Assembly: GCF_900115365.1 (NCBI RefSeq)
Contig: NZ_FOWD01000002.1
Span: forward strand, 124,001-188,000
Length of the DNA: 64,000 nt
Direction: 5' to 3'
Source of the DNA: Anaerocolumna aminovalerica
GTDB taxonomy: Bacteria > Bacillota > Clostridia > Lachnospirales > Lachnospiraceae
Part shown: piece by piece, positions 2,632-18,089 of the stretch
Layout of the letters: each line of letters begins with the position of its first letter
Numbering within the stretch: position 1 is the stretch's first letter
Program-made: the position numbers and the translations under genes
The notes under the pieces: generated by a model
Told to the model about the DNA's origin: nothing
Databases searched by the model: none
The model's input: only the letters and a program-made list of their open reading frames with translations

Positions 2632-3564
2632 TTAATCTACTATCTCTTTGATAAGTACATCAATTTCTTCTCTAGTTGGCATAGAAGTCGTAGTTCCTAG
2701 CCTTGTTACTGAGAGTGCAGCTAACGCATTCCCAAACTTAGCTGCTTCCCAAATGCTTTTTCCTTCAGCTAATGCAGTGCAAAATCCCCCATTAAAAGCA
2801 TCTCCTGCACCTGTAGTGTCGATAGCATTTACTTTAAATGCTGGTATAAATTTACTTTCATCTGGTGTAGCAACAAATACGCCTCTAGAACCTAATGTAA
2901 TAACAACATTCTTAACACCTTTTTCAAAGAAAATATTACATGCCTCCTGTGCCTTTGTTTCATCCGATATATGCACACCCGTTAAAATCTCAGCCTCAAC
3001 TTCATTTGGTGTAATAATATCTATCATACTAAATAATGCTTCATCAATTGGTCTTGCAGGTGCTGTGTTTAAAATAACCTTCACACCATTTTCATGTGCT
3101 ATTTTTACTACATTTTCTACAGCATCTATATTAACTTCCAATTGTACCAGTAAATAATCTGACTCTATAATCTCATTCTTTACTTTTTCAATATCCTCTT
3201 TAGAAATTGTTTCACAGGCTCCCAATGTAACGACTATTTCATTTTGACTTGTAGTTTCATCTACCATAATAAGTGCTGTAGCCGTTGATACATCTTCTGA
3301 GAACATAATATGGTCTTTCGGAATATCTAATGCAGTCATTGTATCTAATGCAACGTTGGCAAAAGTATCTCTTCCCAGCTTTGTTATCATAGTTACATTG
3401 GCACCTGCCTTTTTAGCTGCCACACATTGGTTAAATCCTTTGCCTCCTGGCCCCATTTTAAACATGGATCCTTTTACTGTCTCACCAGGTACAGGCAAAT
3501 GAGGAGTCCTTGCCATTAAATCAACAGCAAAACTTCCAAATACAGTTATTTTTTCTTTCATCAT
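2632..3564 (-). CDS. PfkB-family sugar kinase (ribokinase-like)
   Basis: A 310-residue PfkB-family kinase. The N-terminal strand ITVFGSFAVDLMARTPHLPV and the di-glycine substrate motif MGPGGKGFNQ (about residues 38-47) are ribokinase-like. The C-terminal signature IDTTGAGDAFNGGF carries the catalytic Asp and the anion hole. Ribokinase itself phosphorylates D-ribose at O5 in the cytosol; the sugar or nucleoside used here cannot be fixed from the sequence. It starts at 3564 (ATG-ATG), after AGAAAGG. A strong terminator at 3612-3641 separates it from the ATC-hydrolase-like gene upstream, so it is either a distal read-through gene or an independent unit. Ribose phosphorylation would also suit the nucleoside island at 16-24 kb. 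Confidence 0.85.
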   Translation of the reverse strand: MMKEKITVFGSFAVDLMARTPHLPVPGETVKGSMFKMGPGGKGFNQCVAAKKAGANVTMITKLGRDTFANVALDTMTALDIPKDHIMFSEDVSTATALIMVDETTSQNEIVVTLGACETISKEDIEKVKNEIIESDYLLVQLEVNIDAVENVVKIAHENGVKVILNTAPARPIDEALFSMIDIITPNEVEAEILTGVHISDETKAQEACNIFFEKGVKNVVITLGSRGVFVATPDESKFIPAFKVNAIDTTGAGDAFNGGFCTALAEGKSIWEAAKFGNALAALSVTRLGTTTSMPTREEIDVLIKEIVD

Positions 3565-3611
3565 ATTCTTACCTTTCTATAAAAAGATACTTATTCACTT
3601 AACTATTTGAG

Positions 3612-3641
3612 AAAAAAGCACTACCTATTACAAGGTAGTGC
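3612..3641 (-). terminator. Rho-independent terminator
   Basis: On the reverse strand GCACTACCT pairs with AGGTAGTGC around a six-base loop, then TTTTTT. It ends the LIV/ATC-hydrolase operon just before the PfkB kinase gene. Confidence 0.85.
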
Positions 3642-3650
3642 ACTTTTAAA

Positions 3651-4145
3651 TTATTTATGGAAGTGAAGTCTACAAACGCCATCACCTTTTGCAATTGTTT
3701 TTTCTATATCAAGTTTAAGCCCCATACCATCTGCTATACCTCTATCACCATCCATAGCGATATCACAAAGAAGCTCTAAATCTTTACCTTCATACCCCAG
3801 CTTTTCCCATGCCTGAACAAGTGGACATTGCTTAAATTCAGCAATTACATGATCTTTATCTGATTCAATAACTTCAATCTCCATATTTTTGGAACCTTGC
3901 TCATGAAAGAATGCTTTACCGAAATCTGCTGCACTTGTTGGATCTTCACATTGTGCTTTATATGTCTTGGCATGAATATGTCCGCATTTTCTAATAGCAT
4001 CTCTTCCAGCCTTTTCAAAATCTATTCCTTGTTTTTTAGCCTCATCGAGAATAAGTGCCATCCAAGTAGCCCTATGCTCTACTGCACCTCTTAACTGCAT
4101 TGTTGTAAAATCTGTGTGTTGTGGTTGATTGTGTTTAATTGACAT
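3651..4145 (-). CDS. ATC-hydrolase-family protein, copy 1
   Basis: A 164-residue cytosolic protein of the L-2-amino-thiazoline-4-carboxylate (ATC) hydrolase family (PF14196 as I recall it). The named member opens the thiazoline ring of ATC to give N-carbamoyl-L-cysteine; most relatives are untested. Visible motifs are EHRATWMALILDEAKK (about residues 23-38), RKCGHIHA, QCEDP, CPLVQAWEKLG and LCDIAMDGDRGIADGMG, ending VCRLHFHK. Five cysteines and the DGDRG segment are shared with the paralogue at 11052-11546; the two look about half identical by eye. It is the distal gene of the operon 11546 to 3651, followed by a terminator. Substrate unknown: ATC is a suggestion from the family name and the cysteine desulfidase two genes upstream. 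Confidence 0.75.
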   Translation of the reverse strand: MSIKHNQPQHTDFTTMQLRGAVEHRATWMALILDEAKKQGIDFEKAGRDAIRKCGHIHAKTYKAQCEDPTSAADFGKAFFHEQGSKNMEIEVIESDKDHVIAEFKQCPLVQAWEKLGYEGKDLELLCDIAMDGDRGIADGMGLKLDIEKTIAKGDGVCRLHFHK

Positions 4146-4187
4146 TTTAGTGTCCTCCTAAGTATTATTATTTTTATTTGTAACCAT

Positions 4188-4982
4188 TTAAATTTGATTA
4201 CTTATCTTTAAGTCATAGGAGTAGGAAGGGTTAAGTACTACGCTTCTTCCTCCTGATACTTCAAGACTTGTTGCTGTAATATAGCTTGCTTGTTGAGAGC
4301 ACAAGAAGACAATAGGCCCTGCTATTTCCTCAGGTGTAGCAACTCTTCTTAATAGGGTATTCTCTGCATTATGTAAAAGTTCATTTTCACTTATACTTTC
4401 TTCTACTTTGGGGGTGGTTGTAAATCCTGGTAATATGGAATTAACTCGGATACCATATGCAGCAAATTCACCAGCAAACATAACAGATAAGGAACATACT
4501 GCTGACTTTAATGGACCGTAAAGGGTACTTCGTCCAACCGTTCCACATCTTGCCGCTAAAGAACTTACATTTACAATGCTTCCTCCCGTGTTGACCATAT
4601 ATTTAGATGCTGCTTGGCATCCGTAAATAACCGTTTTAAAACAAACATCTACTATCCAATCAATCTCTTGATTTGTATAATATTCTCCTTGTTTTTCTAT
4701 AGTTGCTCCTACATTATTTATCCAGTAATCAATATGTCCATATTGACTATACACTTGGTCTGCAAAAATATTAATCTCTTCCATTCTAGTAGCATCTATT
4801 GGAGCTGCGTACACTTCTCCATAGGTACTTAATGTTTCTTTCGCTTTCTCTAGTTCATTTTTATTTCTGGCACAAATAGCAACTATTGCACCCTCATTCA
4901 GAAAAGCCTTTGCCGTAGCAAAACCTATTCCCTTACTAGCGCCAATGATAACAGCAACTTTCTTACTCATTTTTAAATCCAT
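4188..4982 (-). CDS. Short-chain dehydrogenase/reductase (SDR)
   Basis: A 264-residue classical SDR, an NAD(P)-dependent oxidoreductase acting on an alcohol or ketone. Features in order: the dinucleotide motif GASKGIG near residue 14, NNVGA (the NNAG equivalent), catalytic Ser in VNVSSLAARCG, the Tyr/Lys pair in STLYGPLKSA, and the post-catalytic ILPGFTTTP. Arg in ICARNKNE after the second strand suggests a preference for NADP, though this is weak evidence. The ATG at 4982 has GGAGG seven bases upstream; the internal ATG at 4970 is not needed. It lies between the desulfidase-like and ATC-hydrolase-like genes on the same strand with short gaps, so it very likely acts in the same pathway. Substrate unknown. 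Confidence 0.85.
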   Translation of the reverse strand: MDLKMSKKVAVIIGASKGIGFATAKAFLNEGAIVAICARNKNELEKAKETLSTYGEVYAAPIDATRMEEINIFADQVYSQYGHIDYWINNVGATIEKQGEYYTNQEIDWIVDVCFKTVIYGCQAASKYMVNTGGSIVNVSSLAARCGTVGRSTLYGPLKSAVCSLSVMFAGEFAAYGIRVNSILPGFTTTPKVEESISENELLHNAENTLLRRVATPEEIAGPIVFLCSQQASYITATSLEVSGGRSVVLNPSYSYDLKISNQI

Positions 4983-5016
4983 TGTAGTACCTCCGCGAAA
5001 ATGAAAGTTCTATTGT

Positions 5017-6285
5017 CTATTTTCCAATCATTATATTGAGAATTTCTACATCCGTTGAACGCATACCTTCTCTCCCCATTCTACCAAGGTTTTGAATCGT
5101 TTTTTCAACATCCTCTTCAACAAGTCCTTCGCCTGCTGCAAATACTTTATTATTAGCACTCATAAAATAGCCTAAAATTCCGGCATCCACAGCTGACGCA
5201 ATCTTAGCTGCACAAGAAGGCTTAGCTCCATCACATACCATACCGCCTATATTAGCAATTGTATTTGTAATTGTCTCAGAAATTTCTTTGTATCCACCAC
5301 CATTTAAATAGGCAATGCCACAACCAGCTCCACAGCCTGCACTTGTTGCTCCGCAGTATGCTGATAGACTACCTATATAGCGTTTTTGATGAATGGATAT
5401 TAGGTTAGCAATTGCTAATGCTCTATATAATAGCTCTTTACTTGCATTCATTTCCTTTGCATACTCAATAACAGGTACTGATACCGTAATTCCTTGGTTA
5501 CCACTTCCCGAGTTAATAACAACGGGTAATGCACATCCACTCATTCTTGCGTCAGACCCTGCTGCACTCATAGCCCTTGCTCTTGTACGCACATCTGTAC
5601 CGTAATATTCCATAATTGTTCTTCCTACTTCAGTTCCATATCCATTCTCAATACCTTCTTTTGCTATTCGTGTATTCAGTTCTACTTGTTGTTCTAATAA
5701 CTCACTTATTCTTTCAATAGGCACTGTGTTAGCAAACTCAATAATATCTTTCACATTGAGCAGTTCTTTGTTACCATTACTCTCCTCTACTTGTGGTTCG
5801 TTTCTTTCAAAAACCACTTGGTTATTTTTAATTATTTTAGTAATGTACGTATGCTTGTCTTTTACTTCTACAGATGCCATTTCATCTTTACAAATAACCT
5901 CAGCAATAATATGTAGATTTTCTGATCCATCTATAAGTTCACATTCACAAAACCCTTGACCTATGAGTTCTTTTGCTTTTTCAATATCTTTGATAGTGAT
6001 GAATTGCAATACTTCAAGTGCTTTGTCAGCTCTTCCACCTACAACACCTAAAGTCGCAGCTACATCAATACCTTTCAGTCCCCCTGAATTAGGAACCGTT
6101 ACACCTTTTACATTCTTAATAATGTTGCCACTGCAATACATTTTTATTTTTTCCGGCATATATCCTAGTACCTCTTTAGCTTTTGCAGCTGCAAAAGCTA
6201 AAGCAATAGGTTCTGTACACCCTAGTGCTGGAACTAATTCACTCTTTAGTATAGCAACATAATTGTCATAAATTTCATGTTCCAA
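5017..6285 (-). CDS. L-cysteine desulfidase family protein (CyuA/YhaM, UPF0597)
   Basis: A 422-residue member of the CyuA/YhaM family. Characterised members are Fe-S enzymes that break L-cysteine into pyruvate, sulfide and ammonia, and share the L-serine dehydratase alpha fold. The family cysteines are present: LGCTEPIALAFA near residue 22, SGCALPVVINSGSGNQG, CGATSAGCGAGCG, and VCDGAKPSC, so the cluster should be intact. The start is TTG at 6285, with GAGGAG nine bases upstream; no suitable ATG is nearby. It is downstream of the LIV transporter genes and upstream of the SDR on the same strand. Another beta-substituted amino acid cannot be excluded as substrate. It is unrelated in role to the serine dehydratase pair at 23.8-25.4 kb, although the fold is shared. 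Confidence 0.85.
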   Translation of the reverse strand: MEHEIYDNYVAILKSELVPALGCTEPIALAFAAAKAKEVLGYMPEKIKMYCSGNIIKNVKGVTVPNSGGLKGIDVAATLGVVGGRADKALEVLQFITIKDIEKAKELIGQGFCECELIDGSENLHIIAEVICKDEMASVEVKDKHTYITKIIKNNQVVFERNEPQVEESNGNKELLNVKDIIEFANTVPIERISELLEQQVELNTRIAKEGIENGYGTEVGRTIMEYYGTDVRTRARAMSAAGSDARMSGCALPVVINSGSGNQGITVSVPVIEYAKEMNASKELLYRALAIANLISIHQKRYIGSLSAYCGATSAGCGAGCGIAYLNGGGYKEISETITNTIANIGGMVCDGAKPSCAAKIASAVDAGILGYFMSANNKVFAAGEGLVEEDVEKTIQNLGRMGREGMRSTDVEILNIMIGK

Positions 6286-6331
6286 TAGTGCAATCTCCTC
6301 TTTTTTTCCTCGCTTTTATAATATGAATCTA

Positions 6332-7042
6332 TTATGCTCCTAAGTATGCTTTCTTAACTTCAGGATCAACTAATAGGTCTTTTCCTTTTCCTTGTAAAAT
6401 AATGTTACCTGTCTCTAACACATATCCTCTATCTGCTATAGATAGTGCCATCGATGCATTTTGTTCAATTAAAAGAACGGTTTTCCCTTTCTCTCTAATC
6501 TTTAGAATAAGTTCAAATATTTCCTCGACTATAATAGGTGCAAGTCCTAGAGAAGGTTCATCTAACATAATGATATCGGGATCCATCATAAGACCTCTAG
6601 CAATCGCAAGCATTTGTTGTTCTCCACCCGAAAGGCTTCCACCACCTTGTGACCATCTCTCCTTTAGTCTTGGGAAAAGAACATAATTTTCCTCTATAAG
6701 TTGTTTTATTTTATCTCTGCTTAGCTTAGGATTACCAATAGTTCCTGCAATTAAATTTTCATACACTGTTAAAGCAGGAAAAATTTTTCTTCCTTCTGGT
6801 ACGTGGCTAAGTCCCATTTTCACAATTTTATCCGGTGCCATTTTTGTAATATCTTGTTCTTTGAATGTAATCTTGCCCTCTAACTTTTCATTCAGATTAG
6901 AAATAGCCATAAGGGTTGTACTTTTACCAGCACCATTCCCACCAATCAAAGTAACAATTTCCCCTTGCTTTACTTCAATGTTAATATTCGTAAGTGCATT
7001 GATATATCCATAATTGACAGAAAGATTCTCTATTTTAAGCAT
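6332..7042 (-). CDS. livF: LIV-type ABC transporter ATP-binding protein
   Basis: A 236-residue ABC ATPase of the branched-chain amino acid (HAAT) type, LivF-like. Walker A GGNGAGKST near residue 35, Q-loop region, signature LSGGEQQ, Walker B IIMLDEPSLGL and H-loop LIEQNAS are all present. With LivG it should energise import through the LivH/LivM pore. The LivG stop and this ATG are one base apart, so translation is probably coupled. LIV-type importers are recruited for amino acids, amides, urea and other small polar compounds, so the substrate must be inferred from neighbours, here ATC-hydrolase-like proteins and a cysteine desulfidase. Confidence 0.93.
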   Translation of the reverse strand: MLKIENLSVNYGYINALTNINIEVKQGEIVTLIGGNGAGKSTTLMAISNLNEKLEGKITFKEQDITKMAPDKIVKMGLSHVPEGRKIFPALTVYENLIAGTIGNPKLSRDKIKQLIEENYVLFPRLKERWSQGGGSLSGGEQQMLAIARGLMMDPDIIMLDEPSLGLAPIIVEEIFELILKIREKGKTVLLIEQNASMALSIADRGYVLETGNIILQGKGKDLLVDPEVKKAYLGA

Positions 7043-7043
7043 C

Positions 7044-7829
7044 TTATTTTACCGCCTCTCCTGCAATAATTCCTTTACCAAAGTATGCTTCCTGAACTTG
7101 TTGATTAGACTTAACATCATCAGGTGTTCCTTCGCATATTTTCTGTCCGAAGTTTAAGACTAGTATTCTATTACAAGAATTCATTACAAACTTCATATCA
7201 TGCTCGATAACAGCAATTGTATAGCCATCTGCATTAAGTATCTTGATAAACTCCATTAATTCTTGTGTTTCTTGTGGATTCATTCCAGCTGCTGGTTCAT
7301 CAAGTAATAATATTTGTGGATCTAAAGCAAGTGCCCTTGCAATTTCAACTTTCCTTTGTATTCCATAAGCTAAGTTGCCTGCCATTGTATCTGTATATTT
7401 AGACAAGCCAACTTTATCAATAATTTCTAATCCTTTTTGTACCGTAAACTCTTCATCTTCTTTGAATGTTTTTGTATGAAGCACGGAGTCCCAAAGTTTT
7501 GTTTTTGTATGAATATGAAATCCAATCTTAACATTCTCAAGTACTGTCATATATTTAAACAACTGGATATTTTGAAATGTTCTTGCCATTCCTCTTTGCG
7601 CAATTTGTTCTGATTTCAAATGAGAAATTTTGTCTCCATTCAGTAATATTTCTCCTTTTGTAGGTGTATATATCCCAGAACAAATATTAAAAAAGGTTGT
7701 TTTACCTGCACCATTAGGCCCTATTATTCCAAAAACATCTCCTTTGTTGATATGCATGCTTACATCTTCTACAGCTTTTAAACCGCCGAAATACTTACAT
7801 ATTCCTTTAGCTTCTAACAGAGACCCCAT
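7044..7829 (-). CDS. livG: LIV-type ABC transporter ATP-binding protein
   Basis: A 261-residue LivG-type ABC ATPase. Walker A GPNGAGKTT near residue 37, the LivG-specific insert with RTFQNIQLF, the degenerate signature LAYGIQRKVEIARAL (normal for LivG, which usually has LSYG), Walker B ILLLDEPAAGMN and switch His in VIEHDM are visible. The start lies 23 bases inside the 3' end of livM and has GGAGGAGG upstream, so the two are translationally coupled. It partners LivF. Confidence 0.93.
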   Translation of the reverse strand: MGSLLEAKGICKYFGGLKAVEDVSMHINKGDVFGIIGPNGAGKTTFFNICSGIYTPTKGEILLNGDKISHLKSEQIAQRGMARTFQNIQLFKYMTVLENVKIGFHIHTKTKLWDSVLHTKTFKEDEEFTVQKGLEIIDKVGLSKYTDTMAGNLAYGIQRKVEIARALALDPQILLLDEPAAGMNPQETQELMEFIKILNADGYTIAVIEHDMKFVMNSCNRILVLNFGQKICEGTPDDVKSNQQVQEAYFGKGIIAGEAVK

Positions 7830-8844
7830 GTGCTCCTCCTCCTTTTTGTTTTGACTTTTCTAGTTTCTTACCATTGCCCTTATCCCCTGCTAAAATACTA
7901 TCTGAAGCTCCAACAAGCCCTTGTGGTCTCCACCACATCATTACAATAATCAATATAGCATATGCAACCATTCTCCATTCACCGATAGGCCTTAGTACTT
8001 CAGTCAATAAGTTAACAATTACCGATCCACAAACAGGTCCAACTAGTGTTCCTTGTCCACCTATAATAACCATGGATAGAATATTAAATCCTTCATCTAA
8101 TGTAAAGAATGTAGAATCAATAAATCTTACATAAGGTGCATAAACCGCACCAACTACACCTGCCCAAAATGCACCATACATAAAGTTAAATGCTTTATAT
8201 TTAGGAACTTCTACTCCCAATGATTTCGCTGCTAACTGATCTTCTCTAATAGCTAACCATGCTCTTCCTATTCTAGATTTCACTACCCTTTTTGTTACGA
8301 AAATAAATAAGATTGCTATTGCTAAAAAGATAAAATAATATGTTTTAGAGTTACTTATTTCAAATCCAAATAAATTAGGTGTTGGAATTCCTTTAATCCC
8401 CATCGGGCCACCTGTTACTGACTCCCAATTAAGTGCAGTGAGTCTTACAATTTCTGAAAATCCAAGTGTCACAATAGATAAGTAAATTCCTTTCATCTTC
8501 AAAGTTGGTAGGGATATACCCAATCCCACTATTGCAGTTACCAAACCTGCTAAAGGAATAATAATCCAAAAATTTATTCCAAACCGTGTTGCAAGTATTG
8601 CTTCACAATATGCTCCGATGCAAAAGAATCCCGCTTGTCCAATACACATCTGTCCACTATATCCATTGATAACGTTAAGTGATCCAGCTAGGGTTGCATA
8701 CATTAGTATACGACACATAATACCCATAAAATAACTTTTGGGTACTAAAACAGGTAAAACTAAAGTTATTATAGCCGCCAAAACCACTATAATTATTTTA
8801 TTTTTTATGTATATTTCTTTACACTTTTGTATTATATTTTTCAT
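7807..8844 (-). CDS. livM: LIV-type ABC transporter permease
   Basis: A 345-residue polytopic permease of the LivM type with many hydrophobic segments. The coupling motif region GRAWLAIREDQLAAKSLGV (about residues 193-211) contacts the ATPases, and the N-terminal part contains NVINGYSGQMCIGQAGFF, typical of LivM. The C-terminus is a charged lysine/glycine-rich tail (KGNGKKLEKSKQKGGGA). The ATG overlaps the stop of livH as TAATG, and the 3' end overlaps livG. It forms the membrane channel with LivH. Confidence 0.93.
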   Translation of the reverse strand: MKNIIQKCKEIYIKNKIIIVVLAAIITLVLPVLVPKSYFMGIMCRILMYATLAGSLNVINGYSGQMCIGQAGFFCIGAYCEAILATRFGINFWIIIPLAGLVTAIVGLGISLPTLKMKGIYLSIVTLGFSEIVRLTALNWESVTGGPMGIKGIPTPNLFGFEISNSKTYYFIFLAIAILFIFVTKRVVKSRIGRAWLAIREDQLAAKSLGVEVPKYKAFNFMYGAFWAGVVGAVYAPYVRFIDSTFFTLDEGFNILSMVIIGGQGTLVGPVCGSVIVNLLTEVLRPIGEWRMVAYAILIIVMMWWRPQGLVGASDSILAGDKGNGKKLEKSKQKGGGAHGVSVRS

Positions 8845-9719
8845 TACGGACGTACTCCCTTCTTGGAAGCGAAACCTTCCGGTTTAATGATAAGTATTAG
8901 AATTAAGAATCCAAATGCAAACACATCTCTAAAGCTTGCTGATGTAATAGTAATACCTAAGTTTTCAATAATACCGATACATAAACCACCTAATGCAGAG
9001 CAGCGAATGTCTGTTAATCCCCCAAGAACAGATGAAGAAAAGGCTTTCATTCCTAGAGAACTACCCATTGTTGCACTAAGTGTCTGATAATAGATGGCCA
9101 AAAGCATACCTGCTACTCCACCAAATCCACAACCAACACAATTTCCAATCATAGCAGTTCTTTTTACGTTAATTCCCATTAAATAAGAAGCACTTTTATC
9201 CTGACTTACCGCTCTTAAAGAAATTCCCCATCTAGTCTTATTAATAAATAAAGATAATAGTATTGCTAATACTACAACGGTTATAATAATAATAACTTGT
9301 ACCAAAGAAATTTGAATCGTTCCTAATGCGAAAAATTTGTTCTCTATCACATTTAACATAGGCTTTTGATTCGGTCCAAAAATAATTTGTGCTAAGTTTT
9401 TAATTAACATACTTACACCAATTGTACATATTAATGAAATATGTCTAGGTGCATTAAAGAACCGTTCATAACACACTTTATAAACAAACATACCTATAAG
9501 CCATGAGGCTGAAAAGCTTGCAATCAAACCTAAAAGAAGGTTATTTCCAAATGCTTGAAATATATAGAAAGCAGCAAAGGCTCCTATCATAATGACTTCA
9601 CCATGTGTAAATGTAACCATTCCAACTACACCTACAACAACAGAGTAACCAACAGCCATCAATGCATATATAGAACCTTGACACAATCCATTAATTATCT
9701 GATTGAATAAATACTCCAT
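8844..9719 (-). CDS. livH: LIV-type ABC transporter permease
   Basis: A 291-residue LivH-type permease, with the family opening LFNQIINGLCQGSIYALMA, the early signature GMVTFTHGEVIMIGAF and coupling motif LRAVSQDKSASYLMGI. The chosen ATG at 9719 has GGAGG seven bases upstream; a TTG six bases earlier is less likely. A 13-bp hairpin separates it from the binding-protein gene upstream, and it overlaps livM by the TAATG arrangement. Integral membrane protein. Confidence 0.93.
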   Translation of the reverse strand: MEYLFNQIINGLCQGSIYALMAVGYSVVVGVVGMVTFTHGEVIMIGAFAAFYIFQAFGNNLLLGLIASFSASWLIGMFVYKVCYERFFNAPRHISLICTIGVSMLIKNLAQIIFGPNQKPMLNVIENKFFALGTIQISLVQVIIIITVVVLAILLSLFINKTRWGISLRAVSQDKSASYLMGINVKRTAMIGNCVGCGFGGVAGMLLAIYYQTLSATMGSSLGMKAFSSSVLGGLTDIRCSALGGLCIGIIENLGITITSASFRDVFAFGFLILILIIKPEGFASKKGVRP

Positions 9720-9756
9720 GAACAATCCTCCCAGATCGAAACTTAATTTTATTTAT

Positions 9757-9796
9757 AAGGGTATCTCTATACAGAAACCTCTTTAGAGATACCCTT
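9757..9796 (-). terminator. Intercistronic hairpin between binding protein and permease genes
   Basis: AAGGGTATCTCTA at 9757-9769 pairs perfectly with TAGAGATACCCTT at 9784-9796; on the reverse strand it is followed by only a short AT-rich run (ATAAATAAAA). The likely role is partial termination or 3' protection of the binding-protein mRNA, giving more binding protein than permease. Confidence 0.6.
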
Positions 9797-9839
9797 GTTA
9801 TATTGCAACTTTTTTATTGCTTATCGATGAGATGATTTT

Positions 9840-11000
9840 CTATTTCTCTGAATAATCAAATCCTTCTTTAATAACATATTCTCCATTTTCCACACTACAT
9901 ATAAGATATTTTCTTGTAATATCACCATCAGGATTAAACTTAATAGGTCCTGTAACTCCTTCCATTTCAACATTAGCAAGGTTATCTCTTATTGATTGTC
10001 TTGTAACATCGCCATCACCACAAGCTTCTATTGCCTTTGCTATTAAATTAACACAATCGTAAGCACATGCCGGGTGAACAGTTGGCTCAAATCCTGACTT
10101 TTGTACAAATTCATCTTTCCATGCCATAGAATCTTGATCAGCCGGATCAAAAAAGAATGGTGTTGAAAGGTAAATACCCTCTGCATTCTCTCCACATAAA
10201 TCAATTAATTGTTCTGATGTTCCAGGTCCTAAAGTTGTAATGTTTACATCCCATCCTGATCCTCTTACTTGATTTATAATTTGAGGCACCGCACCTTGAT
10301 CCATGATACAAATTGTGTCCGGATTAGCAGCCTTTAATTTAGTAATTAAAGAGGAAAAATCTTTCTCATCTTGTACGTAGTTTACTGTTTCTACAATATT
10401 TAATCCTACTTCATCTGCGCTTTTTTTGAAGTTATCATAACAAGATTTTCCCCAGTCACTATTGATGTAAATAACGCCAACGCTTTGTGCATTTAAATAT
10501 TTTTTAAGTATGTACTTAGAAAAAAATGGTGCCTCACCATCTTGTCTACCCATAATACTAAAACAATACTTACTCATAGCAGCATAATCTGGGTTTGATG
10601 CTGTTGGAGAAAGTTGTACTAAGCCAGCCTCATCAAATATTGGAGCATTAGCCATACATGAACCGCTTGCAAAGTCTCCAATAACTGCCATTATTTCTTC
10701 ATCATCTGCAAATTTTCTTGCTAAGTCTGAACTTTCTTTTTGGTCTCCTTTTGAATCTTTCACCTCTAATTCTAATTTGTAACCATTTACTCCACCTGCA
10801 GCATTAATCCTATCTACTGCCATCTTTGTCCCGATTTCAAAACCTTTACCATACTCTGCGTTTGTGCCTGTTAATGGCGCAAGAACACCCAGTTTAATCG
10901 TACCACCTTTTTCTGCCACACTTGAAGAGCTACTCCCACATCCTGTAAGTGATGCTACACCCATTACTAAAGTTAACCCCAAAGCCACTAGTTTTTTCAT
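9840..11000 (-). CDS. livK: LIV-type ABC transporter substrate-binding lipoprotein
   Basis: A 386-residue extracellular binding protein. It starts with a lipoprotein signal (MKKLVALGLTLVMGVASLTG, then Cys, about residue 21) and a serine-rich linker, followed by a type I periplasmic-binding fold: IKLGVLAPLTGTNAEYGKGF, GGVNGYKLELEVKDSKGD, AVIGDFASGSCMANAPIFD, SPTASNPDY. This corresponds to the Leu/Ile/Val receptor family, which also includes amide, urea and other amino-acid receptors. The serine/threonine ligand segment (GDFASGSCM, SPTASNPDY) suggests a carboxylate or amino acid. It is the second gene of the operon, after ATC-hydrolase-like copy 2. Confidence 0.92.
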   Translation of the reverse strand: MKKLVALGLTLVMGVASLTGCGSSSSSVAEKGGTIKLGVLAPLTGTNAEYGKGFEIGTKMAVDRINAAGGVNGYKLELEVKDSKGDQKESSDLARKFADDEEIMAVIGDFASGSCMANAPIFDEAGLVQLSPTASNPDYAAMSKYCFSIMGRQDGEAPFFSKYILKKYLNAQSVGVIYINSDWGKSCYDNFKKSADEVGLNIVETVNYVQDEKDFSSLITKLKAANPDTICIMDQGAVPQIINQVRGSGWDVNITTLGPGTSEQLIDLCGENAEGIYLSTPFFFDPADQDSMAWKDEFVQKSGFEPTVHPACAYDCVNLIAKAIEACGDGDVTRQSIRDNLANVEMEGVTGPIKFNPDGDITRKYLICSVENGEYVIKEGFDYSEK

Positions 11001-11051
11001 AAGTAATAACCTCCTGATTTTATGATTTCATATTTTAATTTTAGCTTGTCC

Positions 11052-11546
11052 CTATTTGTGAAATCTTAATTTGCAAGATGCGCAACCTTTTGCTATTGTG
11101 TCTGTCAACTCAAGTGTAAGCCCCATAGCTTCTGCAATACCTCTGTCACCATCCATAGCAATATCACATAGTTTTGCACATCTTTCATCATCAAACCCCA
11201 ACTTTCTCCATGCATTGACTAGTGCACAGTAATGGAATTCTACCTTTACTTCATCTTCTGTTGATTCAATATGATCCATTTCAAATGTTTTTACACCCAC
11301 TTCTCCCAAGAATACTTTCCTAAAATCATTACAATCATTAGGATTATTACATTGTGATTTAAAGCCTTCTCCATGAATACATCCACATTTTTTAATTGCT
11401 CTTCTTGTAATTCCCTCAGCGTCTAATCCTGCTTTTTCAGCTTCATCAAATATTAACCCCATCCATGTTGCTCTATGCTCGATCTGAGCACGATTAATAT
11501 CAATTTTTTCCTCTTGGATTGAAGCCAAATTATTAATTTTTGCCAT
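11052..11546 (-). CDS. ATC-hydrolase-family protein, copy 2
   Basis: A 164-residue paralogue of the protein at 3651-4145, of identical length. Shared segments are EHRATWMGLIFDEAEKAGLD, KKCGCIHGEG, QCNNP, CALVNAWRKLGF, LCDIAMDGDRGIAEAMGL and CKLRFHK. Copy 2 has extra cysteines (CGCIH, NDCND, CASCK). It is the first gene of the operon, with AAGGAGG before the ATG and a good promoter at 11601-11628. One copy at each end of the operon suggests two different activities or a heteromer. The family's founding reaction is hydrolysis of 2-amino-thiazoline-4-carboxylate; nothing in the sequence proves this reaction here. Confidence 0.75.
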   Translation of the reverse strand: MAKINNLASIQEEKIDINRAQIEHRATWMGLIFDEAEKAGLDAEGITRRAIKKCGCIHGEGFKSQCNNPNDCNDFRKVFLGEVGVKTFEMDHIESTEDEVKVEFHYCALVNAWRKLGFDDERCAKLCDIAMDGDRGIAEAMGLTLELTDTIAKGCASCKLRFHK

Positions 11547-12081
11547 AATATCCTCCTTAAAATAATTATGTAGTGTTAAAAACCTATAATAATATTATTA
11601 ATCATATCAGAAAATTTAAAATTTGCAAGACTTTTTTGTAATTATGTATAGATTATATTATTTAAACATACTTTAATATACATATTAAACAGTTTTATTA
11701 TATTTTCTTACTATTTATTGACCTTCTCAAGATATTCTGATATGATTAGCAACATAATTCAACTAATAGAAATAGAGTATTGTTATGCAAGATGGAAATC
11801 TCAAATGAAACAATTTAATCCAAAATTAATTTTTTTCTAGTCATATTGATTGAGTTCCACTAGAAATGTTATAATATTAATTATGATTACTTTTCTTGCT
11901 GTTTTTGTTGAGCACATAATAAAATCTTGCATTGCATACCTTGTTTCTACTTATCATATCTTATGGTAAAATACTTAATATGCGAACAATCAGTGCATGA
12001 CATACTATATGTGCACTATATTTCCGACTTACCAAAAACAGCGAAAGCAAACGCTGTACATAAAAAACAGGGGGGTTCTTA
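11547..12081. other. Divergent regulatory region of the LIV/ATC-hydrolase island
   Basis: A 535-base gene-free spacer between the operon and its divergent GntR gene. It holds the operon promoter (11601-11628), ATGCAAGAT at 11785-11793 with its exact reverse complement ATCTTGCAT at 11924-11932, the related TTGCAAGAC at 11623-11631, an AGTGCA/TGCACT inverted repeat at 11992-12017, and a small hairpin ACAGCG/CGCTGT at 12038-12057 just before the GntR ribosome site. No ORF of note. Confidence 0.6.
11601..11628 (-). promoter_or_regulatory. Probable sigma-A promoter of the LIV/ATC-hydrolase operon
   Basis: On the reverse strand TTGCAA (11623-11628), 16-base spacer, TATGAT (11601-11606), about 55 bases before the ATG at 11546. 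TTGCAAGAC, a relative of the candidate operator, overlaps the -35 box. Confidence 0.6.
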
Positions 12082-12720
12082 ATGAAAAAATCTGAAACAT
12101 TAAAAGATAAAATATATAATGATGTATTTGATGGTATTATTAAAGGCGAGTATCTTTCTGATCAAATCCTGAGCGAAAAAAGTCTTATGGAGAAATTCAA
12201 AACAAGTAAAGCTCCTGTACGAGAAGCGCTTATAGAACTTTGTAACGAAGGAATCCTGCGTAGCATACCTCGATATGGTTATGAAATTATCAAATTAACC
12301 GATAAAGATGTAAGCGATATTCAAAAGTTTAGAATCATCTTAGAGTGTGAATGTTTATCTCGCTATTGGGATATGATTACTCCCGATCACATCGCTCAAC
12401 TTGAACAAATTATTACCGAAGACTATGCTAACTGTACAGAATATAATGCTATAGTTCATTGGGAAAATAATTCTAGATTTCATTTATTACTTATGTCTTT
12501 TTTTAAAAATCAATATATCTATAATACAATTAAATCTTCACTATCTATTCTCACTAGAGCCTATGCACAATTTTATTGGGATAAGTGGCACACAACACAA
12601 TTCAAGACTAGTGCAGAATGTCATGAAAAATTTATAAAATGCTTAAAATCTAACGACAAATATGGTGCTATCAAAGCATTAGAATGGGATCTTAGTGGAT
12701 TCCATGAAAAGACTATTTAA
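12082..12720 (+). CDS. GntR-family transcriptional regulator (FadR/FCD type)
   Basis: A 212-residue regulator. Residues about 5-70 form the GntR winged helix (LKDKIYNDVFDGIIKGEY, then SEKSLMEKFKTSKAPVREAL). The remainder is all-helical with the histidines and acids of an FCD ligand domain (ENNSRFH near residue 134, CHEKF near 190, GFHEK at the end), which often bind a metal and a carboxylate effector. A GGGGGG ribosome site lies seven bases before the ATG. It diverges from the LIV/ATC-hydrolase operon and is its probable local regulator, with the imported compound or a breakdown product as effector. That link is positional inference. Confidence 0.88.
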   Translation: MKKSETLKDKIYNDVFDGIIKGEYLSDQILSEKSLMEKFKTSKAPVREALIELCNEGILRSIPRYGYEIIKLTDKDVSDIQKFRIILECECLSRYWDMITPDHIAQLEQIITEDYANCTEYNAIVHWENNSRFHLLLMSFFKNQYIYNTIKSSLSILTRAYAQFYWDKWHTTQFKTSAECHEKFIKCLKSNDKYGAIKALEWDLSGFHEKTI

Positions 12721-13015
12721 AACAGAACGTGAGATTGCATTGCTAGTGATGAAAAAAAGTAAAGCAATTTAGTACGTATTATTTTAATATTTACTACAAA
12801 TATCCCAGTCTAGATGGTTCTAATTATCCTAAACAATTAGAACTATCTCGACATTCGTCAAAACGGCCACAAGAATGCATAAACAAAAAACAGTCCTAGA
12901 ATGGTAGATTAAATCAGATTCTTCTAACCAGAAACAAGAATAAAACCTTCTGGATTCTAGCTGTCCAGAAGGTTTCCAATATTGGCACACAGATTTTCTT
13001 TTCATATATGTTATT
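12721..13015. other. Gene-free spacer with two inverted repeats
   Basis: Between the GntR gene and yjjW. It contains an unexplained inverted repeat GTTCTAATT (12818-12826) / AATTAGAAC (12835-12843) without a T-run and a terminator hairpin at 12943-12975. No further coding signal seen. Confidence 0.5.
12943..12975 (-). terminator. Terminator of the yjjI-yjjW transcript
   Basis: AAACCTTCTGGA (12943-12954) pairs perfectly with TCCAGAAGGTTT (12964-12975). On the reverse strand the stem is followed by TATTCTTG, a weak T-tract, so termination may be partial. Confidence 0.6.
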
Positions 13016-13058
13016 CTAACTTGTCATTCTTCCCAGTGCAGTTTCTTTTAATGCCGCC
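13016..13058 (-). pseudogene. Tiny remnant resembling the serine dehydratase alpha-subunit C-terminus
   Basis: Directly after the yjjW stop the reverse strand reads AALKETALGRMTS-stop. The first nine residues match the intact sdaAA C-terminal region (IALKETALGG), and CCAGTGCAGTTTC at 13033-13045 is identical to 2563-2575 in the other remnant. Too short to be functional; chance similarity is possible. Confidence 0.4.
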
Positions 13059-13062
13059 CCTA

Positions 13063-13899
13063 TCACACAATACGTACATTGCCAAATCCATTTTCAAGTG
13101 CAATCTGTTTTAGTTTCTCCATATACTCATAAGTCGGAGATGCTGCCTCTTTTAGCTCTCCTTTTACGCCAAAATGACGAAAACGAATCAACTTAAGAAG
13201 AACATTCTCCCTTGTTTGTTCAGATACATAATCAGCAATTCCCTTAATAGTGTCCTCTGCATCTACATAGTCCTCCAGGCAGACAATGCGAAGTTCCTCT
13301 AACTTATTTCTATTAGATAGCTGGCGGAGATTTTGTTTTACTACTTCATTGTCCGCTCCGGTCAGATTACGAAAGCACTGATCAGACCAGGCCTTTACAT
13401 CCAGCATGATTCCATCACACACTTCCATCACCGGATTGTTCCACAATGGTATCGTTCCGTTACAGTCCATCAGACAGGTAATACCAATACTTTTACACTT
13501 CCCAAACAATTCCTGCAAAAAAGGAGTGTATAAGGAGCATTCTCCGCCAGATACCGTAATTCCCCGGATAAATGGCAGATTTTTAGCAATTCGATCAAAT
13601 ACTTCATCCACAGTCATTTCTGTTACTTTAGGTGAACTATCATTTGGACATACATGAATACAAGTATCACATTTGATGCAGGCCCATGAATCCCAAGCCA
13701 CCTGGCCCTCCACAACCATTAATGCACCCACCGGACACTTAGCTACACAAAACTGACAATGATTACACAATTTCTGTGTCTCTGGGTTATGACAGTATTT
13801 ACAGGAAATATTGCACCCTTGAAAAAATATAGCACTACGATTTCCAATGCCATCTACCAATGAATGATCTATGATTTTATTAATCGGCGCCTTAAGCAT
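13063..13899 (-). CDS. yjjW: Glycyl radical enzyme activase, YjjW family
   Basis: A radical SAM activating enzyme of 278 residues from the ATG at 13899. It should use S-adenosylmethionine and a [4Fe-4S] cluster to place the radical on the glycine of YjjI. The radical SAM motif is GCNISCKYCHNPE (CxxxCxxC), after which two ferredoxin-type cluster motifs are inserted, CNHCQFCVAKCP and CIKCDTCIHVCP, as in other GRE activases. SGGECSLY is the SAM-binding GGE motif. The start at MLKAPINK follows AGAAAGG; the earlier in-frame ATGs lie inside yjjI. It overlaps the yjjI stop by eight bases, so the pair is translationally coupled. Cytosolic and oxygen-sensitive. Confidence 0.88.
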   Translation of the reverse strand: MLKAPINKIIDHSLVDGIGNRSAIFFQGCNISCKYCHNPETQKLCNHCQFCVAKCPVGALMVVEGQVAWDSWACIKCDTCIHVCPNDSSPKVTEMTVDEVFDRIAKNLPFIRGITVSGGECSLYTPFLQELFGKCKSIGITCLMDCNGTIPLWNNPVMEVCDGIMLDVKAWSDQCFRNLTGADNEVVKQNLRQLSNRNKLEELRIVCLEDYVDAEDTIKGIADYVSEQTRENVLLKLIRFRHFGVKGELKEAASPTYEYMEKLKQIALENGFGNVRIV

Positions 13900-15406
13900 G
13901 GGAACGCACCTTTCTTTCATCAAGCCTATTTAATTTATAGTTGGTACTTCCATTCTGAACGGTATCCTGAAGAACCACTTCCCCATTGTCATATTTCTCA
14001 ATATCGCTTCTCTTGGCCAGATAACCGGTAATACGTACCAGATCACCGTCAGACTGATAAATAGCTATGTATTTGTCACCAATAGAAAATGCACCCTTTA
14101 TAATATCCAGTACAGCCGCCGGATTATTCTTAGCCGTCCCCTCAAATGGGAAAATATCCGAACAACCTGTAGGGAAATATTTATGAAGCCTTGCACTGTG
14201 TCTTAAATGGTCATAAATACTCTCAGGCTCATCCCCTACCACAATACGAATGCCAGAGGTAACTCCTATATCCGTTGAAAGTCCTGCCTGGGCATGGAGA
14301 TAATAATGCCCTCCGGACACTTCGCAATATTTTGCCGGATAAGTAGCAACAAAATCTGAGATAATTTTTAAAATCTGCTCAGCTAAATCATCTGCTTCCG
14401 GATCGTTTCCATAACGTTTACCACTATCACGAAGCAAATAATTAACTCCATCGCAGAGTCCTGCAATACCAAACATACCGGTGAAGTTCTCTCTCTCAAT
14501 CAAACCTTCTTTCACCAGGAAGGAGCTCTGGAAGAAACCGGATTCCTCAACCAGAAAACGGATTCTTTCATCCATATATTCCCCAAGACCCTGCAAAGCC
14601 TCAGGCAGAATTTCATTAAGAAACTGTTCGGTACTTTCCGCCATTTTAGCAAGACGAGGGATTACTACACGGGACAGAATATAGGAACCACCTCGCAAAG
14701 GTAACACATTATAACAGCTGGACACACCATAGTCCCAATAGGTGTCCTTGTGTGCCTTATGGTTTGCAATTGCAGGATTGGCACAGGTAAGGGCGCAGAG
14801 TATTGCTTTTTCCATCAAATCATCCGGTGTAACGCCCACCTCATACTTCATAGTAAAATTAGGAACCGCATTTTGTAATTCTTGCTCACATTCCAGTAAA
14901 AGGCGGGTAGCTCTTAAATCCTCTGGTCCCAGGTTAGCATGGCAATATCCATCTGCTATGGTACGATCAATATAATTAAGGAACAACTTAAATTTGGTTT
15001 TAACTGCTTCATCACTGAGTCCAACTATAAAAGGATCCAGCAATACATCTAAATTGCCCAGATATACCGGCATGGTGGTAATGGATGGCACATGATAATA
15101 CAGTGTAAGCAGAGCAAAAATAGCCTCATCCAATGTATTGGGTGGTGCAATTTTTAAAAATTCACTTCCTTGCATTAGAAAGCGCTGATAGTCCACCATG
15201 ACATAACGCGGACGATAGGGCGCATTTCCCTCATTCATATCACAAAGTGCACGGGTTTCGAAGTATTTAGAAAACTTTTCTGGTATATTTAATACATCTA
15301 AGCTATTTTCAGCCTGTTTTGCTAACTGAATTATTTTTTGTTGATAGGTTAAACGTCTTGATGTTAATATTTCATAAGTTTCCTGTGTTGTTGTCACATT
15401 CTCCAT
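13892..15406 (-). CDS. yjjI: Glycyl radical enzyme of unknown reaction, YjjI family
   Basis: A 504-residue YjjI-family (DUF3029-type) glycyl radical enzyme; E. coli YjjI is about the same length. The C-terminal radical loop reads VRITGYLAKRSDIEKY, the equivalent of the RVxGY motif of pyruvate formate-lyase, so Gly in ITGYL should carry the radical. It is much shorter than pyruvate formate-lyase or diol dehydratase. The start at 15406 (MENVTTTQ) has AGGAG nine bases upstream; the longer frame upstream lies inside the GntR gene. The reaction is not established. In E. coli yjjI-yjjW lies beside the deo genes for deoxynucleoside breakdown; here it lies beside nucleoside uptake genes and uridine phosphorylase, which supports a role in nucleoside or deoxyribose use. 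Confidence 0.85.
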   Translation of the reverse strand: MENVTTTQETYEILTSRRLTYQQKIIQLAKQAENSLDVLNIPEKFSKYFETRALCDMNEGNAPYRPRYVMVDYQRFLMQGSEFLKIAPPNTLDEAIFALLTLYYHVPSITTMPVYLGNLDVLLDPFIVGLSDEAVKTKFKLFLNYIDRTIADGYCHANLGPEDLRATRLLLECEQELQNAVPNFTMKYEVGVTPDDLMEKAILCALTCANPAIANHKAHKDTYWDYGVSSCYNVLPLRGGSYILSRVVIPRLAKMAESTEQFLNEILPEALQGLGEYMDERIRFLVEESGFFQSSFLVKEGLIERENFTGMFGIAGLCDGVNYLLRDSGKRYGNDPEADDLAEQILKIISDFVATYPAKYCEVSGGHYYLHAQAGLSTDIGVTSGIRIVVGDEPESIYDHLRHSARLHKYFPTGCSDIFPFEGTAKNNPAAVLDIIKGAFSIGDKYIAIYQSDGDLVRITGYLAKRSDIEKYDNGEVVLQDTVQNGSTNYKLNRLDERKVRSHA

Positions 15407-16103
15407 TGTCCTGATCTCCTTTCTTTTTATTTTCTTTTTTATGTGAAGATAAATTTGTAATTGATGTTTCAATTGCCATCCTTGCGTAGATGGAAGCTAC
15501 CTCCGGGTTTCGTTCTTTTATTGCTTCCAGTATTTTCCCATGATATTTGATTGCACTTTCCGGCCCGGTATTGTGATAAATCATCTTTTGATTATCTACA
15601 AATACATTCATGAATATTTCTGAAATCTGTATAATCATAGGATTTCTAGTACCATTGGCAATAATATTATGAAAAATCTGATCTAATTGGTGAAATTCCC
15701 GCATATCATCCTTTGCAGCAACCATCTCTACGTAATTGTGATCCAAAGCTTTTATGTCCTCATCCGTAGCATGTTCAATAAATAACTGCACATTATATGA
15801 ATCGAACATCTTACGGAATTCCAGGATTTTCAGGAGAAAATTATCATCAAATCCTAATATTGAACCACTCATAATAGACATGTTTTCTTTCTGTTCCACA
15901 TAGGTACCGGAACCCTGGACCTTTTTTAGTATGGACAATGCTACTAAGCTTTGAATTGCATTACGTATGGCAGCTTTACTTACTCCAACTATCTCCACCA
16001 ATTGGGATTCCGTTGCAATTTTATCCCCCGGCTTCCATTTACCTGAACGAATCTGTTCCACAATATAATCATAAGCGATATCTGATGCCTGATTAATATA
16101 CAT
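15372..16103 (-). CDS. GntR-family transcriptional regulator (FadR/FCD type)
   Basis: A 243-residue regulator with a winged helix at residues about 5-75 (AYDYIVEQIRSGKWKPGDKI, TESQLVEIVGVSKAAIRNAI, VQGSGTYV) and an FCD-like helical ligand domain (EFHQLDQIFHNIIANGTRNP, MAIETSITNL). The tail is lysine-rich and polar (SSHKKENKKKGDQ). Its stop lies 35 bases inside yjjI, so it is co-transcribed with yjjI-yjjW and probably regulates that operon or the neighbouring nucleoside genes. GAGGA precedes the ATG. A conserved-looking hairpin leader at 16119-16176 sits just before it. Confidence 0.88.
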   Translation of the reverse strand: MYINQASDIAYDYIVEQIRSGKWKPGDKIATESQLVEIVGVSKAAIRNAIQSLVALSILKKVQGSGTYVEQKENMSIMSGSILGFDDNFLLKILEFRKMFDSYNVQLFIEHATDEDIKALDHNYVEMVAAKDDMREFHQLDQIFHNIIANGTRNPMIIQISEIFMNVFVDNQKMIYHNTGPESAIKYHGKILEAIKERNPEVASIYARMAIETSITNLSSHKKENKKKGDQDNGECDNNTGNL

Positions 16104-16329: not shown

Positions 16330-17124
16330 TTATAAACTTTTCGTAACTTTTATAAATTCCTTCACACATTTGTCCCAGTATTCCCAATCATGCAGACCAT
16401 TTCCACCAAAAAACTCTGTTTCAAATCCACAACTTTTTAATTTTTCATATAACTTGTAATTCATTGAATAATTATTGGTATCATCTTTACCACATGCTAC
16501 AAATGCATAAGGTTTCTCAGAATATTCACTACATTTTTCCGCCATAACCTTTAGATCGTCTTTGCTTCCGGTAACTTTATCACTACCACCAAAAATCAAA
16601 TCATAGCGAAAAAAACCAAAACCCATCTGAACCATAAGAGGTTCCAGCTTTTGCGGATCTACGGCACCGGAAAAGTCACCAAAGGCACGGTATCTATCAG
16701 GTCTGCCAAGCCCACATTTACTAGCACCATATCCGCCCATAGAAGGTCCGGCAATATAGCGATTCTCTCTGTCACGGGATACCGGGAAGGTATATTCAAC
16801 AAATCTTGGTAATTCCTCTGTAATATAGTCAAAATAATTCAATCCACAGACTGCATTACTATAAAAACCATTCTGCCCTGAAGGCATTACCACTGCGATA
16901 CCGGCTTCTTCGGCATAACGTTCTATATTCGTATGGCGAAGCCACATAGTATAGTCATCCAAAGCCCCGTGAAGTAAATATAAAACAGGAATCTTTCTTT
17001 CCTTATATACTTCATCCAGGCTATGGAAAAAGCAATCATTATCCGGAATAGTCGGAATAAGAACGTTAACATCAACATGATTATTTAAGGTTTTAGAATA
17101 AAAATTACAATGACATAAAATCAT
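16330..17124 (-). CDS. Alpha/beta-hydrolase esterase (EstA/esterase D-like)
   Basis: A 264-residue esterase of the tributyrin esterase / esterase D type. No signal peptide, so cytosolic. Oxyanion-region LLHGALDDYTMW near residue 51, nucleophile Ser in AGPSMGGYGASK near residue 129, acid in ACGKDDTNN and His in GNGLHDWEYW are all visible. The start overlaps the stop of the second permease gene as ATGA, so it is the last gene of the nucleoside transporter operon. It may remove acyl groups from an imported conjugate; this is inference from position only. Confidence 0.82.
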   Translation of the reverse strand: MILCHCNFYSKTLNNHVDVNVLIPTIPDNDCFFHSLDEVYKERKIPVLYLLHGALDDYTMWLRHTNIERYAEEAGIAVVMPSGQNGFYSNAVCGLNYFDYITEELPRFVEYTFPVSRDRENRYIAGPSMGGYGASKCGLGRPDRYRAFGDFSGAVDPQKLEPLMVQMGFGFFRYDLIFGGSDKVTGSKDDLKVMAEKCSEYSEKPYAFVACGKDDTNNYSMNYKLYEKLKSCGFETEFFGGNGLHDWEYWDKCVKEFIKVTKSL

Positions 17125-18086: not shown

Positions 18087-18089
18087 CTA

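Follow-up and report, generated by a model that had tools for sequence, protein, structure and literature searches.

A LIV-type importer, PF14196 proteins and a CyuA-type desulfidase in a candidate cysteine-conjugate cassette of Anaerocolumna aminovalerica

Introduction

In Pseudomonas, a carbamoyl-cysteine amidohydrolase is encoded beside the hydrolase of 2-amino-thiazoline-4-carboxylate (ATC). PF14196 owes its family name to a thiazoline-ring-cleaving enzyme (PMC5847659, in the part available), and the conversion of ATC into cysteine and then into pyruvate, sulfide and ammonia has been described in Pseudomonas in the available portion of PMC10821248. Another known system is the CyuP–CyuA pair of Escherichia coli; for CyuA, three cluster cysteines, a catalytic Cys23/Glu25 and an Arg, an Asn and a Lys have been named as cluster or active-site residues (PMC12647591, in extract). 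Cysteine has also been reported to react spontaneously with sugars and other carbonyls (PMC13121033, in extract). Here, a 64,000-nucleotide stretch of the Anaerocolumna aminovalerica genome (contig NZ_FOWD01000002.1, positions 124,001 to 188,000; the window) is analysed, in which a nine-gene minus-strand run, from 11546 to 3651, has the order ATC1–receptor–LivH–LivM–LivG–LivF–CyuA–SDR–ATC2, ATC1 and ATC2 being PF14196 proteins (encoded by ATC genes, as they are called below) and SDR a short-chain dehydrogenase/reductase. This locus may be a regulated catabolic cassette for a cysteine conjugate, in which import and opening by the ATC proteins would deliver cysteine to CyuA and a carbonyl part to DhaK–DhaL (DhaKL) or the SDR, a reading to which we give roughly even chances. 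It draws on gene content, protein families, linkage, CyuA residues and a DhaK histidine motif, all read from the sequence, and on a predicted ATC fold.

Conserved linkage of ATC, CyuA and LIV genes

Related loci were sought with ATC1 as query against one genome per species, and the 79 loci obtained from the best 80 of 151 confirmed matches were read in six frames, with score floors for the CyuA, DhaK and Liv counts (120 bits for CyuA). Linkage in related genomes, on which the first-pass annotation of this DNA had made its proposal of a sulfur-compound system depend, was found: CyuA is present in 41 of the 79 loci (42 at any score) and at least three Liv genes in 36. The same reading gave matches to DhaK (31 loci), DhaL (29), GntR-type regulators (28), related SDRs (12) and ribokinase-like proteins (6). 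In 13 of the 41 CyuA loci no more than 100 bases separate CyuA from an ATC frame, and in 38 of them CyuA and its nearest ATC gene share a strand. Among the 36 Liv loci, CyuA occurs in 19, DhaK in 28 and both in 13; one or the other is found in 34, and neither in two (L041 and L054). The density of CyuA genes predicts about 0.16 of them for the 1.27 Mb read, as against 41 loci observed; this density rests on a genome total of about 205 Mb (a rounded sum made by eye), and the related loci are not independent of each other. The ATC–CyuA–LIV linkage is conserved, far above chance. It is a property of an ATC1-like subset of PF14196: in a sample of the order, PF14196 was found in 62 of 295 genomes, 19 of which also have CyuA. 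Within the genus, ATC1 has a patchy distribution, 3 of 14 other genomes carrying the gene.

The loci come from Bacillota, Spirochaetota, Chloroflexota, Bacteroidota and Methylomirabilota, and those of the last two phyla yielded no partner genes in the six-frame reading. In one Bacteroidota locus (L048) the ATC gene is followed by a short carrier-like protein and then by a ligase-like protein, as judged from sequence starts only; another (L033) has the same arrangement by gene lengths, a setting unlike catabolism. On the ATC tree (84 of 87 rows), 24 changes are needed to account for the CyuA label, 17 for DhaK and 20 for Liv, and the parts of the cassette have therefore been gained and lost repeatedly. 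An independent-pairs test of Liv with DhaK on this tree gave a median p of 0.125, the pairs being too few for significance. ATC–CyuA pairs are also found without LIV genes, beside other transporters, for example of the major facilitator superfamily, sugar-type ABC and Gate types. Such differences in transporters and accessory genes between loci would suit a general amino-acid and sugar scavenging island with no common substrate; nevertheless, the same functions are found again across different receptor clades and two DhaK subfamilies, and mostly on one strand (as counted above for CyuA and the nearest ATC gene), which makes a mere scavenging island very improbable.

The putative desulfidase and the LIV-type importer

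The closest solved relative of the window CyuA is the Methanococcus maripaludis protein (E 1.3e-26), and it was through an alignment with the latter that residues were matched to the sites named in the extract of PMC12647591. With CyuA of E. coli K-12 the window protein shares 36% identity and all eight residues compared (C23, E25, R247, N263, C311, C351, C358 and K361). In an alignment of 59 CyuA-type rows, none departs from the three cluster cysteines, the Arg or the Lys (59 of 59), while Cys23 is kept in 58, Asn263 in 57 and Glu25 in 56 (Asp in three). Because active-site and cluster residues are kept, desulfidase activity of the window protein is likely. In the tree of these 59 rows (E. 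coli, L120, 19 unlinked rows and, filtered by length, 38 of the 44 rows from the loci and the own genome), it falls inside an 18-row set made up entirely of ATC-linked CyuAs (support 84, not starred), the 19 unlinked rows having been drawn only from genomes that also have PF14196.

The importer is a complete five-part LIV/HAAT set within one operon, with a receptor, two PF02653 permeases and two ATPases. LivF, LivG, LivH and the receptor all score under the NCBIfam LIV cut-offs (258.4/441, 283.9/362, 146.4/379 and 145.7/477 bits, respectively); LivM was scanned with Pfam only. The receptor is a type-6 binding protein in which, by pairwise alignment, Gly258 occupies the position of an Asp in 3ip5 that we take to bind the ligand amino group. 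An LGPG motif is common to window-like receptors, and E49 is invariant in 28 aligned receptors (26 of the 38 locus receptors, of suitable length, plus two of the own genome), with Q at that place in a third receptor clade that was omitted from the alignment. At most, this hints that the ligand of the window receptor may differ from plain Leu/Ile/Val.

The PF14196 proteins

ATC1 and ATC2 are 54% identical over 146 residues, and ATC2 falls on a separate branch from ATC1 in the ATC tree. The AlphaFold model of ATC1 (predicted local distance difference test score, pLDDT, 97.4) has a Bet3/V4R-like fold, with a structural match across most of the chain. Three ATC cysteines align with V4R. The structure alignment of the ATC proteins has 67 of 80 ATC rows of suitable length and three rows from the own genome. 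A search of solved structures with the ATC1 sequence or the ATC alignment gave no match. ATC1 is proposed to act as a ring-opening or C–S hydrolase. URO-D/MtaA-like proteins are also found near ATC genes, by Pfam in L026, L035, L039 and L073 and by similarity in L040 and L075; these neighbours had suggested a methyl-transfer step, which is not claimed.

The sister cassette and the proposed carbonyl side

A second, paralogous cassette exists in the same genome (C28:12000-31000, also L083), where one strand carries CyuA2, receptor, LivH, LivM, LivG, LivF, DhaK, DhaL and ATC3, followed by a sigma-54 activator. Its receptor is 32% identical to that of the window and its CyuA2 54% identical to the window CyuA. 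Upstream of it, a search for a sigma-54 promoter gave 6 matches vs 7.5 expected, and none is claimed. The recurrent pair of 335 and 207 residues adjoining ATC genes is DhaK–DhaL, of the dihydroxyacetone-kinase family. Both members in the sister cassette exceed their NCBIfam cut-offs (DhaK, TIGR02363, 478.2/406.25 bits; DhaL, TIGR02365, 180.8/138.3 bits); those of L008, the sole scanned member of the common linked subfamily, score below them (371.9/406.25 and 133.5/138.3 bits). Two DhaK subfamilies can be told apart among 33 rows, a canonical one with GHEP (5 rows) and a divergent one with GHLP (28 rows), all 28 of the latter having G where the canonical form has K ahead of NY or SY (GHLP...GNYGGD...GIHGE; for example L008:17394-18401). 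The GIHGE histidine motif is kept in 30 of 30 rows with coverage, in both subfamilies. These motifs form the DhaK substrate pocket. A DhaM gene lies on contig 43, beside another DhaK, and its product could possibly serve phosphotransfer in trans. The recurrence of DhaK–DhaL as partner points to a ketose or other carbonyl product.

Candidate substrates of this kind exist: according to the extract of PMC13121033, human and mouse cells and tumours contain cysteine–sugar thioethers formed from dihydroxyacetone phosphate and glyceraldehyde 3-phosphate, and also thiazolidines or hemithioacetals that arise from cysteine and carbonyls. The thioethers could themselves be the substrate: in an S-ketosyl route, for example for S-(1-deoxy-dihydroxyacetonyl)-cysteine, CyuA would be a C–S lyase, the divergent DhaK would phosphorylate the mercapto-ketose and the ATC protein would assist. 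The existence of such conjugates and a divergent DhaK that differs at two motifs while keeping its histidine motif where covered would agree with it. However, CyuA catalysis has been described for free cysteine, thiol-bound to the cluster (PMC12647591, in the part available), and the ATC protein is left without a clear role, so this route is an unlikely one.

Other partner genes have been found on both sides of the supposed conjugate. Three Liv–ATC–DhaKL loci with no CyuA in the stretch covered carry a pyridoxal-phosphate (PLP) enzyme of a cysteine-related family: a SufS-like protein with a 4-base overlap with DhaL in L027, a CysK-like protein 48 bases downstream of DhaL in L039, and a Cys/Met-metabolism enzyme between ATC and receptor in L068, all over Pfam and under NCBIfam cut-offs. 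In the L039 genome, no CyuA was found elsewhere. More generally, 20 Liv/DhaK loci (19 genomes) have no CyuA in the stretch, and 15 of these 19 genomes have one elsewhere; for 18 further loci (18 genomes) with no CyuA, DhaK or Liv at the floors used, the figure is 7, three of them partial or interrupted. Carbonyl enzymes stand beside ATC in a few loci, namely iron-containing alcohol dehydrogenases (Fe-ADH) in L078, L079 and L073 and aldo-keto reductases (AKR) in L029 and L031. Relatives of Xaa-Pro peptidases, of the M24 and amidohydrolase types, occur in L025, L078 and L071 with scores under the NCBIfam cut-offs, and might, weakly, suggest a proline-like thiazolidine.

Proposed pathway and its alternatives

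In the pathway proposed, the LIV-type ABC importer would take up an amino-acid-like conjugate of cysteine with a small carbonyl or ketose moiety, either a thiazolidine/thiazoline-4-carboxylate or an S-ketosyl compound. Its opening by ATC1 and ATC2 would yield the carbonyl part together with cysteine or a readily cleaved derivative of it. From cysteine, CyuA would then form pyruvate, ammonia and sulfide. Reduction or oxidation of the carbonyl part would fall to the SDR in this operon and to Fe-ADH or AKR in some relatives, and in the sister cassette this part would be phosphorylated by DhaK–DhaL; the product would enter glycolysis. The substrate, the order of the steps, the chemistry of ATC and the role of the SDR are what we infer here. 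A bolder form is rather doubtful: bacteria would here have their first dedicated pathway for triose– or ketose–cysteine thiazolidines or thioethers such as occur in human and mouse cells and tumours, with LIV import, a Bet3/V4R-fold hydrolase to open the ring, CyuA for the cysteine and a divergent DhaK–DhaL that would lead the ketose into glycolysis. Anaerobic communities would in this way turn glycated cysteine into sulfide.

Several observations weigh against a conjugate-degrading cassette. DhaK–DhaL is absent from the window operon, the ketose part being argued from relatives and from the sister cassette, and both SDR and DhaK accept many substrates. At the floors used, 20 of the 79 loci have no CyuA, DhaK or three Liv genes, several of them on short contigs, and two Bacteroidota loci belong to a different setting. 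In the order sample, only 9 of 99 PF14196 places (62 genomes; two tables combined) lie within 10 kb of CyuA, and linkage as a trait of all PF14196 proteins was rejected on this count. Replacement of CyuA by a PLP enzyme is unproven in L027 and L068, since each of the two genomes encodes a distant CyuA (34% identical) at another place. In addition, the ATC fold is also that of non-enzymatic ligand binders, and ATC1 and ATC2 could be V4R/Bet3-like ligand- or metal-binding helpers in an operon for cysteine import and fermentation. Against this stands the family name, taken from an enzyme cleaving a thiazoline ring (PMC5847659, in the part available), and plain cysteine import would leave the DhaKL, SDR, AKR and Fe-ADH partners unexplained; the helper role is thus an improbable one.

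A last point on the same side is the presence of M20 genes near ATC in L029, L031, L057 and L078, where they would suit a carbamoyl or acyl route; carbamoylases belong to the M20 family. These genes would fit a true ATC salvage, with import of ATC, its conversion by ATC1/ATC2 to N-carbamoyl-cysteine, a carbamoylase encoded elsewhere and finally CyuA. PF14196 carries the name of the corresponding enzyme, the Pseudomonas route cited above is a precedent, and contig C59 has a carbamoylase-family gene (388.6 bits, cut-off 204). Nevertheless, no carbamoylase was found among the genes 2632–15472 (LivM scanned with Pfam only; the 79 loci had no systematic carbamoylase search), and ATC salvage has no place for DhaK or DhaL, which occur in 31 and 29 of the 79 loci. 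It possibly fits the window operon, not the DhaKL cassettes, and as an explanation of the whole it is decidedly unlikely. The first-pass annotation had noted the decarbamoylating step as missing; the C59 gene is on another contig. Its route from ATC to N-carbamoyl-L-cysteine is not supported as a general one, given the lack of a carbamoylase in that range and the recurrent DhaK–DhaL partner; its fallback, another heterocycle or cysteine conjugate, is favoured by the comparison of loci, and its sulfur amino-acid theme is supported.

Operon layout and neighbouring genes

All genes named in that annotation (two PF14196, the LIV importer, PF03313, SDR and GntR/FCD) were found where it had placed them and in the families assigned (Table 1). 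Its claim of one operon stands for the 11546–3651 run, in which the spacing, from a 23-base overlap up to 114 bases, and the shared strand are consistent with a single transcription unit. The ribokinase, also within its range, is probably a unit of its own, possibly accessory, because a terminator-like stem intervenes between the two; in the whole region 4 such sites were found vs a mean of 4.3 in shuffles, which is no excess. As a core member the ribokinase was dropped, in view of this stem and of the just six loci with ribokinase-like matches. A GntR operator was sought in the 11546–12082 gap, where only short A+T-rich palindromes were found, and none is claimed.

Table 1. Features of the operon and its flanks (window coordinates)
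Feature	Position	Strand	Basis and remarks
ATC1, PF14196	11052..11546	-	Pfam 82.7 bits, cut-off 28.1; first gene of the operon
LIV/HAAT-type receptor (substrate-binding protein)	9840..11000	-	PF13458; nearest solved chain 3hut_A, E 1.9e-45
LivH-type permease	8844..9725	-	PF02653
LivM-type permease	7807..8844	-	PF02653
LivG-type ATPase	7044..7829	-	PF00005 + PF12399
LivF-type ATPase	6332..7042	-	PF00005; top NCBIfam match LivF, under cut-off
CyuA-type [4Fe-4S] L-cysteine desulfidase (putative)	5017..6285	-	PF03313
Short-chain dehydrogenase/reductase (SDR)	4188..4982	-	PF13561/PF00106; proposed substrate, the carbonyl or alcohol part
ATC2, PF14196	3651..4145	-	Pfam 75.1 bits, cut-off 28.1; last gene of the operon
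Terminator-like stem-loop 3' of ATC2	3618..3641	-	9 pairs, then T run; consensus match only
GntR/FCD regulator, divergent	12082..12720	+	PF00392 + PF07729
Ribokinase	2632..3564	-	TIGR02152 346.7 bits, cut-off 299.65

Near the GntR gene, the minus strand encodes a YjjW activase and YjjI glycyl radical enzyme pair (13063–15472), both over the NCBIfam cut-offs. Further on (17121–20712, minus strand), an ABC importer is represented by its permease and its ATPase, which look like those of putative B6/sugar-type systems but score under the cut-offs; a receptor of a type related to this importer sits near ATC–CyuA in L029.

Comparison with described systems

Among the matches listed in a search of the open-licence literature, no paper on such a cluster was found, nor one on a bacterial route for cysteine–carbonyl products; the list includes two papers in which the PF14196 family is mentioned (PMC8401325 and PMC9674144). 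If the proposal is true, a widespread anaerobic route from conjugate to hydrogen sulfide would bear on how sulfide is produced in the gut and on what becomes of glycation products. Part of PF14196, the divergent DhaK subfamily and a number of LIV-type receptors named only by resemblance would also gain functions.

The Pseudomonas ATC-to-cysteine pathway is similar in its PF14196 protein (membership following from the family name and the available part of PMC5847659) and in the later conversion of cysteine into pyruvate, sulfide and ammonia, but here there are a LIV importer, a [4Fe-4S]-type desulfidase, an SDR and, in relatives, DhaKL, with no carbamoylase in the operon. The E. coli CyuP–CyuA system, which imports and ferments cysteine, shares a CyuA with the same compared active-site residues, whereas the importer here is of the ABC LIV type and is joined by ATC and carbonyl enzymes. 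With the LIV/HAAT branched-chain importer all five parts are shared, although the four scanned here fall under the NCBIfam LIV cut-offs and the receptor has Gly258 instead of the Asp of 3ip5. V4R, Bet3 (TRAPP) and H-NOX fold proteins resemble ATC1 in the fold of its model and, for V4R, in three aligned cysteines, but ATC1 stands alone by catabolic genes and not in a regulator or trafficking complex. Finally, DhaKLM is matched by the DhaK and DhaL of the sister cassette, which exceed the NCBIfam cut-offs, while the common linked form is the divergent subfamily, whose one scanned member (L008) falls below them.

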